A stretch of DNA of 32,350 bases from positions 1 through 32,350 of the forward strand of contig JAFVXI010000010.1 in NCBI GenBank assembly GCA_017501245.1. The letters are read 5' to 3'. A program made the position numbers and the translations under genes. The notes under the pieces are model-generated. The model was not told where the DNA came from. It saw only the letters and a program-made list of their open reading frames with translations, and ran no database searches. Of the stretch, positions 2,553 to 32,350 are shown in pieces; position 1 is the first letter of the stretch; every line of letters begins with the position of its first letter. The DNA is from Clostridia bacterium (GTDB lineage Bacteria; Bacillota; Clostridia; Oscillospirales; CAG-272).

Positions 2553-3692
2553 TTACGCCAGCCTCAGGATCACGAGCTGTGCGGTAACGGGGGAAGCGCC
2601 TCCCGCAGAGGGGGTAAGAAGCAGATTTTCCGTGCTTGCCGCAGGGTTTCTGACCGTGAGGATGCTGTCCGCCGTAGCCGTCGTGATGATGGAGCTGCCC
2701 ACAAGCTGAGCGCCGCCCGAATCTCTGCCGACGAGGGTGGATGCAAGCTCGGCTCCGTTCAGCGTAAGCACGAGCTGTCCTGCCTCGGTTGCGCTGAGAA
2801 TATAGCTGACGAGGTAGGTTCCCGCCTCGGAAAGCAGGAAGGTGGTATCTCCGGTTCTGCCGATGTCGGTGTTTGCTATCACGCCGTTAGTGGGGAAGGC
2901 AACGTCCTCACCAGGGGTGATAAGCGCGGGGTTGTCGGGCGGCATAGTAGCGTAGAAGTTTGCATAGCTAAGCACCGTGCCCGCAGGACCCTGAGGTCCA
3001 ACAGGACCGGTTGCACCCGTAGCGCCGGTAGCACCTGCGGGGCCGGCAGGACCCTGAGGCCCAACCTCACCCTGAGGGCCCTGAGGACCGACAGGACCGG
3101 TTGCACCCGTAGCGCCGGTAGCACCTGTGGGGCCGGCAGGACCCTGAGGTCCAACCTCACCCTGAGGTCCCTGAGGACCGATAGGGCCAATAGGACCGGT
3201 TGCACCCGTAGCACCCGCAGGGCCGGCGGGACCCTGAGGCCCAACCTCGCCCTGAGGTCCCTGAGGACCGATAGGCCCGGTAGCACCCGTAGCACCGGTA
3301 GCACCTGCTGGGCCGGCAGGACCCTGAGGTCCAACAGGACCTGTTGCACCCGTCGCACCGGTAGCACCTGTGGGGCCGGCGGGACCCTGAGGACCGGTTT
3401 CACCGATAGGACCCTGTGCGCCCGTGGGACCCTGAGGTCCGGCAACGCCCTGAGGACCGATAGGACCCTGAGGTCCTACGCAGCAGCATTCGGTGGGATA
3501 GTCGCAACCGCAATCACAGCCGCCACACTGACCGCAGGAGCAGCAGCTGCCGCATCCGCCGTGGTTGACCGTGGAGCTTCCGCAGCCACCCTGATTTACC
3601 GAGGAGGCTGTGCATCCAGTGCCAAAACCCGTACCATAGGTCTGTCTCGTCTGGTTGCAGTTAAATCTTGAAAGTCTGTTATCTCTATACAT
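2553..3692 (-). CDS. Collagen-like, Cys-rich surface/exosporium-type protein
   Basis: 379 residues in three parts. Residues 1-72 are a Cys/Gly-rich head with 14 cysteines, which could cross-link or anchor the protein. Residues 73-239 are unbroken Gly-X-Y triplets (GPQ, GPA, GAT, GEV) that should form a collagen triple helix. Residues about 240-379 form a non-repetitive beta-rich globular domain of the BclA C-terminal (C1q/TNF-like trimer) type. Such proteins form filaments on the exosporium or cell surface of Bacillus and Clostridia. There is no Sec signal or LPXTG motif, which fits assembly on a spore rather than export. The start is supported by AGAGG six bases upstream. The gene has its own terminator and its own (weak) promoter. 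Triplet number is likely to vary between strains because the DNA is internally repetitive. Confidence 0.85.
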
Positions 3693-11378: not shown

Positions 11379-11466
11379 TCGTCTCGGGCAGGGCTCGTAA
11401 TGAGAGCTAAACGCTTCGGCTCGGTATTGGTAATGTTCTTAGCGGAGAAATTGAAAACTCTACTAA

Positions 11467-11513
11467 GTGCGATCATCGCACCTGACCGGTCAAATGCAAA
11501 TGGGCTAAGCCCA
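11467..11513. repeat. Two small palindromes after the SDR gene
   Basis: GTGCGAT-C-ATCGCAC at 11467-11481 is a perfect 7-bp-arm palindrome and TGGGCT-A-AGCCCA at 11501-11513 another. They begin the gene-free, repeat-rich stretch 11379-12062. Nothing recognisable lies in 11379-11466. Confidence 0.6.
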
Positions 11514-11519
11514 AACCCT

Positions 11520-11610
11520 TATACGTGAACCCCCAAAGCTCATACTTCGCTTCGGGGAACCCCTATACGTGAACCCCCAAAGCTCATTACATTCGCTTCG
11601 GGGAACCCCT
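11520..11610. repeat. Tandem pair of ~45-bp repeat units
   Basis: Units at about 11520-11563 and 11564-11609 each start TATACGTGAACCCCCAAAGC and end TTCGCTTCGGGGAACCCC, differing by two or three bases in the middle. Each can fold: CCCCAAAGC pairs with GCTTCGGGG with one mismatch. Non-coding. Confidence 0.85.
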
Positions 11611-11617
11611 ACACTAG

Positions 11618-11877
11618 CAGAAAGAGATAACAAATCGGTTCGTAGCCGAAATGTTATCTCTTTTTCTGTTTGTTTAATGAAATCGTTGCACGGCAACGAT
11701 GAAATCTTCACTTCGTTCAGATGAAATCCAAGGGTAAGCCTTGGATGAAATCAAATCCGTCCATATATAACCCTGCGAAGCAGGATTTCATCGCGGCAGT
11801 GATTTCATCCACTGTAAGTGGATTTCACCCGTCGAAGACGGATTTGACTGCGTGTTCTCCGTTAAGGATAACACGCA
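11618..11877 (+). repeat. Hairpin-array element, copy 1 (complete)
   Basis: Left end: a 51-nt terminator-like hairpin, CAGAAAGAGATAACA (11618-11632) with TGTTATCTC-TTTTTCTG (11652-11668). Then the word ATGAAAT at 11677, 11699, 11721 and 11745 alternates with palindromes such as CGTTG/CAACG and CCAAGG/CCTTGG. After an unpaired stretch near 11752-11771 the word turns into its reverse complement, ATTTCAT, at 11785 and 11802 and as ATTTCAC at 11822, alternating with CCTGC/GCAGG, CCACT/AGTGG and CCGTC/GACGG. Right end: hairpin TGCGTGTT...CC-GTTAA-GG...AACACGCA (11849-11877). There is no usable ORF. The same architecture with other sequence occurs at 32124-32350. It is a repeat-element family, not a CRISPR. 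Function unknown. Confidence 0.85.
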
Positions 11878-11943
11878 TATCCGGAGGATGTTTTTTGTAC
11901 CTCACAGTATCCGGATGTGATATCTTTCACATTATATCGTTTT

Positions 11944-12097: not shown

Positions 12098-12384
12098 ATA
12101 TTGAAAAGACGCTTGAGCGGAAACCAGTATCCGTCATAGGTTTTAGAAGAGAGCTGCCGGTCGGTGCGAGGCAGTACTACCTTATCGGTGAATTCATTCC
12201 GCGAGTCGTCAGTTGAAGGCTGTTTTGCTGCGTAGGCTGATCGGGTCCGACCGTTATATCGGCTCGGGTGTGTTGGCACCCATAGAGGCCCTCTCCGCGA
12301 GGTGTGGGCGAAGCAGAGTGGTACCGCGGCATATGCCGTCCCTGTTCGATGCCTTTTTTGGCTCGGCAGGATTTTTTCTTTTTT
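12098..12384 (+). ncRNA. T-box leader with phenylalanine specifier
   Basis: The T-box core AGAGTGGTACCGCGG is at 12315-12329. Stem I closes by GACG (12108-12111) with CGTC (12207-12210) and GCGGAA (12117-12122) with TTCCGC (12197-12202). Directly 5' of that closing strand stands GAATTCA, so the specifier is TTC at 12193-12195 (Phe), in the same position as TGG in the trpB leader. The terminator (CCTG...GCC / GGC...CAGG, 12341-12370) is followed by a T-rich run to 12384. The predicted ligand is uncharged tRNA-Phe. Confidence 0.9.
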
Positions 12385-12451: not shown

Positions 12452-13381
12452 ATGAAAAAGATCCTATCCCTCGTCCTTATCCTTGCGCTCACGCTCAGCG
12501 TTGCGCTCGTTTTCGGCTCTTGCGCTCCTGCTGCGGATTATACCGTCGGCGTCTGCCAGCTTATGAAGCACGATTCCCTTGATCAGGCTACTCAGGGATT
12601 CATTGACGCACTTAATAAGGCTATGAATGATGCAGGCAAGACCGTTGACATCCAGCTCCAGGTCGCAGGCGAGCCCCGCCTTTGCGCAACCGTTATCAAC
12701 ACCTTCACCGCTAAGAACGTAGACCTCATTATGGCAAACGCTACCCCCGCTCTTACCGCAGCGGCTGAGGCTACCTCTACCATTCCCGTTCTCGGCACCT
12801 CCGTTACCGATTATCTCGACACCTTCGGTGGAAACATCCCCGCTAACGTTGGCGGCACCTCCGACGCAGTTCCCTTTGACGATCAGGCAGAGATGATGAT
12901 CGAGACCCTTGGCCTCGTTAAGGGCGACAAGGTCGGCGTTATCTATTGCTCCGACGAGTCCAACTCCATTATCCAGTACAATGCTGTAAAGGCTCTCTTC
13001 GAGTCCGCAGAGATCGTCGTTGAGGCTTACACCTTCTCCGATGCAGCTACCGAGCTTTCCGCTATCACCAACAATGCGGCAGCAGAGTGCAAGGCGATCT
13101 ACGTCCCCTCCGACAACACCGTCGCTCAGAACGACACCATCGTTGGCAGCATCTGCCAGGATAACAACGTTCCCGTATTCACCAGCTACGGCGGAACCAT
13201 CTGCTATGCAAGCCTTGCTATCGACTACTATGATCTTGGTTACCGCACCGGCGAGATGGCAGCAGAGATCCTCCTCGGCACCAAGACCCTTGCCGACTTC
13301 GAGATCGAGGTCCTTGAGCCCTCCACCGTATACAACGAGGAGCTTTGCGAGGCTCTCGGCATCGCCGTTCCCAAGAACTGA
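12452..13381 (+). CDS. ABC transporter substrate-binding lipoprotein (TrpX-like)
   Basis: The extracellular, membrane-anchored ligand-binding subunit of an amino-acid importer. 309 residues. The Sec signal 1-20 ends in the lipobox FGSC with Cys24 as the lipidated residue. The rest is a two-lobed periplasmic-binding fold of the ABC_sub_bind family (PF04392), the family of TrpX in the TrpXYZ tryptophan transporters; note VIYCSDESNSIIQ and VFTSYGGTICYASL. AAAGGAG stands before the ATG. The T-box with a Phe codon indicates induction by phenylalanine starvation, so phenylalanine or a precursor is the likely cargo rather than tryptophan (inference). The permease gene follows after an intercistronic hairpin. 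Confidence 0.9.
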   Translation: MKKILSLVLILALTLSVALVFGSCAPAADYTVGVCQLMKHDSLDQATQGFIDALNKAMNDAGKTVDIQLQVAGEPRLCATVINTFTAKNVDLIMANATPALTAAAEATSTIPVLGTSVTDYLDTFGGNIPANVGGTSDAVPFDDQAEMMIETLGLVKGDKVGVIYCSDESNSIIQYNAVKALFESAEIVVEAYTFSDAATELSAITNNAAAECKAIYVPSDNTVAQNDTIVGSICQDNNVPVFTSYGGTICYASLAIDYYDLGYRTGEMAAEILLGTKTLADFEIEVLEPSTVYNEELCEALGIAVPKN

Positions 13382-32101: not shown

Positions 32102-32123
32102 AAAAAAAGGGCTGACGGCAAAT

Positions 32124-32350
32124 AGCGTGATGTCCTTAACGGACAAATCACGCTAACTAAGTTTGCCCTTAGGGCAAGTGAAGTTATCTTCGATAGTGAA
32201 GTTCACTCTGTGAGTGAAGTTTCGCCTAATGGCGAAGTGATGGGCAAACTTAACTTCACTGCGAGCTTTTGCGAGCAACTTCACTGTGTATAACACAACT
32301 TCACTTTTGCGACAGCAAAAACTTCACCAACAGAAAAAGAGCATACATAC
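32124..32350 (-). repeat. Hairpin-array element, copy 2 (cut by window end)
   Basis: In + coordinates: hairpin AGCGTGAT-GTCC-TTAAC-GGAC-AA-ATCACGCT (32124-32154); then palindromes separated by GTGAAGT at 32178, 32196 and 32214, then by its reverse complement ACTTCAC at 32253, 32278, 32298 and 32321. Palindromes include TTGCCCT/AGGGCAA, TTCACTC/GAGTGAA, TTCGCC/GGCGAA, TGTGT/ACACA and TTTTGC/GCAAAA. AAGTTTGCCC (about 32159-32168) also pairs with GGGCAAACTT (about 32242-32251), so the forward half can close as one large stem. The right end CAACAGAAAAAGAG is the complement of the CTCTTTTTCTGTT of copy 1, so the element lies in reverse orientation. Non-coding. Confidence 0.85.

Follow-up and report, generated by a model that had tools for sequence, protein, structure and literature searches.

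A probable gene-less mobile element with an inverting, Gut-1-like hairpin array in a Clostridia genome, and its possible connection with PF05635 proteins

Introduction

REP/BIME (RAYT) elements are palindrome mosaics that occur in single-hairpin and in composite forms. Gut-1 (RF01706) is a noncoding RNA of the human gut that was placed in class 'Y' and held not to be cis-regulatory; the available text of the original description names no protein for it (Weinberg et al. 2010, PMC2864571). The intervening sequences (IVS) of 23S rRNA, whose ends are complementary, take the place of hairpin loops in a structured RNA, and an S23-family ORF is present in some of them; according to the accessible part of a study of Coxiella, the S23/IVP protein of these sequences has no known function (PMC4990558). 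The same protein family, PF05635, resembles Avd of the diversity-generating retroelements (DGRs) in the structural comparison of 4DWL with 2GSC, as given in an excerpt of the source (PMC10053308), and the legend of one figure lists 23S rRNA IVP among CRISPR adaptation associations. Streptococcus pneumoniae has BOX elements, repeats without genes that are built of end modules and of inner modules whose number varies; they fold strongly, and target duplications are known for them (PMC3049150, available text). A literature search that was not keyed on the name Gut-1, and that had subscription journals mostly outside its scope, returned no paper tying PF05635 to hairpin arrays or to Gut-1.

The DNA analysed here, referred to as the window, is the whole 32,350-nt stretch of contig JAFVXI010000010.1 from a Clostridia bacterium (assembly GCA_017501245.1). 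An earlier note, made from the letters alone, had described in it a hairpin array threaded on a 7-base word that inverts midway.

Structure and boundaries of the element

All word positions given in the earlier note were found again on re-reading of the sequence (table 1). ATTTCAT and ATTTCAC are also present singly at other places in the window, and GATGAAATC was counted five times on the two strands of the window, every time within the element (expected 0.34; 0/100 shuffles reached five). The inverting-word score of positions 11618-11877 was 7, with a maximum of 4 when its bases were dinucleotide-shuffled 2000 times, which excludes the chance origin that the note had named as a possible refutation. 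Folding z-scores of the array region were -7.1 (+ strand) and -8.3 (- strand). The hairpin-array layout in the window is thus real and beyond chance. The extent first assigned to it (11618..11877) was too short: that feature makes up the right half of an element without genes spanning about 11426-11879, which begins near 11426 and includes the tandem repeat at 11514-11617.

Table 1. Coordinates of the element, its modules and related features in the window.
Feature	Position	Strand	Description or basis
Whole gene-less element, about 454 bp	11426..11879	.	Inverted ends; boundaries from same-genome copies C3, C10, C21
Module A, left end	11426..11513	+	TTCTTAGCGGAG at end, palindrome around GACCGGTC, hairpin GGGCTAAGCCC; left end common to other copies
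Module B	11514..11617	+	Unit of 44-46 nt (AACCCC..AAAGCTCAT..GCTTCGGGG), present twice in tandem
Module C	11618..11676	+	Long hairpin CAGAAAGAG..CTCTTTTTCTG, the 'terminator-like hairpin' of the earlier note; also in other copies
Module D	11677..11848	+	Inverting hairpin array whose links change from GATGAAATC to GATTTCATC
Word ATGAAAT	11677, 11699, 11721, 11745		Re-read of sequence
Inverted word ATTTCAT	11785, 11802		Re-read of sequence
Inverted word ATTTCAC	11822		Re-read of sequence
Gut-1 RNA (RF01706) match, 36.2 bits	11675..11756	+	Rfam covariance model, gathering score 50
Gut-1 RNA (RF01706) match, 46.6 bits	11797..11885	-	Rfam covariance model, gathering score 50
Module E	11849..11879	+	Right-end hairpin GCGTGTTCTCCGTTAAGGATAACACGC
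Right flank	11880..11897	+	T-run; would-be right arm of host terminator
Second element, same class	32123..32350 (site also given as 32103-32350)	-	Cut by contig end

The second half of module D is enclosed by a long-range stem (AAATCCGTC/GACGGATTT), and the copy number of module B differs from element to element. The left end is conserved among copies and matches the right end imperfectly in inverted orientation over 25 nt (72%), so that the element has terminal inverted repeats of the MITE kind. The second element of the window comprises the end hairpin, an array with the word GTGAAGTT/AACTTCAC in reverse sense and the start of module C; directly to its left are a run of A and what may be a terminator arm.

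Other features were noted in the window. A T-box leader (RF00230), scoring 87.9 bits where the cut-off is 93, was matched at 12103-12346; the ORF downstream of it, at 12452, was read as a putative transporter binding protein. The ORF at 2553-3692 (-), of 379 aa, has long collagen-like GXY repeats.

Copies in this and other genomes

In the genome to which the window belongs (G000, 73% complete), the right half of the element matched 18 times and the left half 33 times. Five of the 18 array matches stop at a contig end (contigs C3, C13, C24, C25 and C28), so that the repeat breaks this assembly. The E hairpin was found at 8 places without mismatch and on C12 and C15 with one or two mismatches; three further two-mismatch places may be due to chance. 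This hairpin also stands alone, as mini-copies of about 30 nt that were located by eye in terminator loops at C12:41272-41292 (L027) and C15:13413-13433 (L029).

Matches were obtained in 26 of the 40 genomes searched, namely in 23/25 within the genus and 3/15 outside it. A three-word pattern scan of public genomes yielded at least 110 stretches; among those listed, 72 were inverting arrays, 9 ran into a stretch end and 29 were of other kinds. By eye, about 18 of these 29 are repeats of a simple or coding kind from outside Clostridia, and about 11 are Clostridia arrays that are degenerate or run one way. The records of the 72 inverting arrays among the matches listed are titled as Clostridia, Clostridiales, Oscillospiraceae or Ruminococcus MAGs, many from ruminant gut. 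The absence of further copies, by which the earlier note would have judged its proposal, did not hold: dispersed copies are present in the same genome and in its relatives.

Two other origins were rejected. A simple tandem or coding repeat does not agree with 72 inverting arrays among the at least 110 public stretches listed, and a phage origin does not agree with the viral-contig stretches, none of which (0/7) was an inverting array. The phages and plasmids searched gave no match to the element.

Position within terminators

Among the loci examined, 36 copies had their two ends within 700 nt of each other, with lengths of 335-445 bp; one of them (L188) had a left flank of just 5 nt. Complementary flanks (score ≥10) were found in 26/36 copies versus 58/1260 mismatched flank pairs, and 28/36 had an A-run on the left together with a T-run on the right. 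In a random-piece control, whose pieces came from array-bearing loci, 23/600 were at score 5. Most two-ended copies sit in the loops of intrinsic terminators, where they split the stem between its complementary arms. The window copy is an exception to this pattern: no complementary left arm was found beside it, and its flank stem score was 5.

Orthologous loci with and without the element, a comparison that the earlier note had proposed, were available for one copy. L107 (in G011) lies between a gene pair that was found in 8 relatives, and the junction was empty in 8/8. A clear, uninterrupted terminator hairpin was seen at 6/8 of the empty junctions; the hairpin of L336 has no T-run and that of L342 is weak (by eye). 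For the window copy no usable empty site was obtained, the right flank matching a coding sequence in G001 and a T-box with its gene in G006, neither of them with the window's left neighbour. No target duplication was established; the targets are palindromic, and TAA often stands on both sides (by eye) but overlaps the E palindrome. The suggestion that the array might be non-autonomous mobile DNA is supported by the dispersed copies, the common ends, the terminator positions and this one filled/empty site. Terminator hairpins are an unusual choice of target for a small element.

Arrays beside PF05635 genes

PF05635 (23S rRNA intervening-sequence protein) was found in 15/16 genus genomes examined and in 63/147 of the order. 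In all, 114 PF05635 loci were examined, 60 of them order-level loci hand-picked from an order-wide list; 107 had enough upstream sequence and 105 were scored downstream. An inverting word stood upstream of 62/107 PF05635 genes (41 at score 5, 29 at score 6), and the downstream control gave 15/105 (7 at score 5, 5 at score 6). The word detector was crude: it gave no word for 45/107 genes, and part of the low-scoring words probably arose by chance. L362 was scored on masked bases in the upstream count, and real words were present in it in the word-sharing comparison; four of the 30 genus loci (L299, L309, L310 and L311) were partial matches and were omitted from the word count. The view that the feature encodes nothing is borne out for the window copy, but PF05635 genes stand downstream of arrays of the same build.

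The nearest tRNA or tmRNA within 700 nt upstream of PF05635 was on the same strand in 51/107 loci and on the opposite strand in 0/107, at a distance of 172-322 nt in 47/51. Similar arrays, with various words, often stand between a tRNA terminator and a PF05635 gene. In 23/72 public arrays among the matches listed, a tRNA gene was situated within 330 nt to the right, always pointing at the array; the E hairpin (narrow pattern) was present in 28/72 of those listed, and the tRNA and the E hairpin occurred together in none. Beyond the array, a four-helix-bundle gene was noted at several of these tRNA-adjacent public loci. Since the array family is often beside PF05635 genes, it is a possible target for the PF05635 protein.

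The word was shared by 2% of PF05635 protein pairs at 40-50% identity, 4% at 50-60%, 28% at 60-80% and 71% at 80-95%. Sixty sampled same-word pairs also aligned upstream (median 79% over about 217 columns), so that this correlation may be plain co-inheritance. The words of the 36 gene-less copies were ATGAAAT (22), GTGAAGTT (9) and TGAATTG (1) by count, and CGATAT (3) and GTGATGTT (1) by eye, so that different arrays can be enclosed by the same ends. All five words recur in PF05635-linked arrays, an overlap that is more telling than the word-protein correlation. The A and E ends were found in 0/114 PF05635 loci, three weak single matches looking like chance, and so no element with both ends and a PF05635 gene was seen. 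In G000 (73% complete), PF05635 genes are present on C7 and C13 only, with none in the window contig C1. Neither of them falls in the clade linked to the window's word (by eye), and the cognate protein is therefore absent from this genome or unassembled.

Some tRNA loci showed additional features. In L268 (G040:C5) and L276 (G046:C4), 18-nt matches to the 3' end of tRNA-Leu surround inserts of 425, 193 and 125 bp beside the array, and these look like nested insertion at tRNA 3' ends. Integration of the array by tRNA 3'-end duplication was rejected, being seen only in these 2 of the 16 stretches tested (2 of 18 stretches had no tRNA call). To the left of the arrays at the tRNA genes of L264-L266, L131, L207 and L257, a common promoter-like stretch is followed by different small cargo-like genes (by eye); at several tRNA loci the by-eye impression was of an integron attC-like site with cassette cargo. 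In L283-L286 and L288, PF05635 genes lie between short tandem words of opposite sense (TTGAAAATGG.. / ..TTTTCAAC in L284), with no hairpin array (by eye).

Conservation of words and stems

In 32 aligned arrays, the words of the left half were invariant and those of the right half nearly so, and the stems varied. Hairpin 1 had 26 distinct sequences among the 32, with 99% Watson-Crick pairs versus 64% when the arms were swapped between copies. For hairpins 2, 3, 5 and 6 the values were 67, 79, 96 and 85%, versus 40, 46, 69 and 66% with swapped arms. A TC/CT double mismatch was often kept in hairpins 2 and 3 (by eye). RNAalifold on a MAFFT alignment gave 27 pairs, 7 of them changed on both sides; the per-hairpin count was preferred because the stems were misaligned in the MAFFT alignment. 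The linker words are thus invariant or nearly so and the stems are replaced on both sides, which bears out the proposal that word and fold are kept and sequence is not.

Interpretation

The window element is very probably a gene-less mobile relative of the PF05635-linked arrays. As an explanation of the whole, to which we give a probability of about 0.5, we propose a mobile element, present in the window as a gene-less copy, which has at its core the Gut-1 hairpin motif in doubled and inverting form and is moved by way of a putative recognition of the word by PF05635. In such a mechanism, the PF05635 four-helix-bundle protein, an oligomer in a solved relative, would bind the repeated word held open between the hairpins. 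The complex of protein and array may be the handle by which the element gets copied or inserted, and gene-less copies would use the PF05635 protein, together with whatever enzyme it works with, in trans.

We also put forward, more tentatively, a hitherto unrecognised class of mobile elements in which PF05635 proteins might act on inverting arrays with clade-specific words at tRNA terminators, the arrays also travelling without a gene into terminator loops. IVS and Gut-1 could then be partial views of this class, and array recognition could be the function of S23/IVP. This would tie up three loose ends, namely the Gut-1 RNA, the S23/IVP family, which has no known function, and the abundant repeats of gut Clostridia that break assemblies; through the pairing of word and protein, binding can be tested directly and cheaply in a family for which a structure has been solved.

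The inverted ends (25 nt, 72%), the five different words enclosed by the same ends and the existence of ends-only mini-copies of about 30 nt would also fit an ordinary MITE, in which A and E are the terminal repeats of an unfound, terminator-preferring DNA transposon and the array is a passenger from PF05635 loci. No gene was seen between the ends of the 36 copies (335-445 bp, looked for to 700 nt), nor in A-E pairs up to 6 kb apart, a range that gave 5 more pairs, none of them real; this is to be read with the 36/82 A-like ends that had no E in the stretch examined. The Y1 (IS200/REP-type) transposase is missing in 13/16 genus genomes, including G000, and the E hairpin differs between genomes on both sides of its stem (by eye), which is unusual for terminal repeats that are read by sequence. 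We consider this reading rather unlikely.

Still less probable, in our judgement, is a structured RNA with a cellular role, either a small RNA near tRNA operons or a leader of PF05635, of which the gene-less copies would be relics. It agrees with the scores of sister loci, which reached the Gut-1 cut-off in 8/18 and 7/20, and with the placing of Gut-1 as an RNA of class 'Y', not cis-regulatory, in the available text of its authors (PMC2864571). In the tRNA/PF05635 direction, the PF05635-linked arrays had 27 G.T pairs versus 13 A.C mismatches and the neighbouring tRNA terminators, in the same direction, 8 versus 1; in the tRNA direction, the public array set had 14 versus 9 and the per-hairpin set of 32 arrays, which is partly the same data, 13 versus 9. 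This wobble bias is weak; it leans toward an RNA in the tRNA direction and settles nothing. A DNA-only structure, a view first prompted by the few G.T pairs, was dropped when the larger count gave the weak G.T excess in the tRNA direction. Against a cellular RNA, the examples read by eye place the arrays beyond a terminator, and before a promoter-like box where such a box is visible, and dispersal into terminators is left unexplained.

That the array was selected as a benign insert, around which the host terminator refolds at no cost, is very improbable, because the terminator arms paired around the element in the predicted fold of 26/26 copies with a stem (14/14 in the first test) and did so equally with dinucleotide-shuffled interiors (155/156), so that nothing in the array is needed for arm pairing.

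Comparison with known systems

The element of the window resembles REP/BIME in being a palindrome mosaic with single-hairpin and composite forms, and differs in the inversion of the word within its layout. The RAYT-type Y1 transposase (PF01797) was absent from G000 (73% complete) and present in 3/16 genus genomes; action of a RAYT in trans is not supported, the enzyme missing in 13/16. With BOX it shares modularity, the lack of genes, a variable inner module and strong folding; compared by description only, and within the available text on BOX, the inverting-word layout and the terminator-loop target are not described there (PMC3049150).

The PF05635 query sequence matched structure 2rld. Avd works with a reverse transcriptase, whereas RVT_1 was found in 2/16 genus genomes and not in G000 (73% complete); its absence from the other 14/16 gives no support to a reverse transcriptase acting in trans.

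Like the 23S rRNA IVS, elements of the window type mostly sit in hairpin loops, but their usual host hairpins are terminators, and hairpin arrays are not mentioned for IVS in the accessible part of the Coxiella study (PMC4990558). The window had no Rfam rRNA match at gathering scores, and the profile search of G000 placed no PF05635 gene in the window contig C1.

In Gut-1 three hairpins are linked by UGAAAU, and each half of the window array matches it. Both halves, on opposite strands, scored below the Gut-1 gathering score. The statement that no known element class has this layout was too strong, since both halves resemble the published motif, below its cut-off. The Gut-1 model covers one half, whereas two halves in opposite sense and a long-range stem are present here. 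Further differences from Gut-1 are the other words, the links with PF05635 and tRNA genes and the gene-less copies in terminators. A fragment of the element is known, as Gut-1, and the whole is new.
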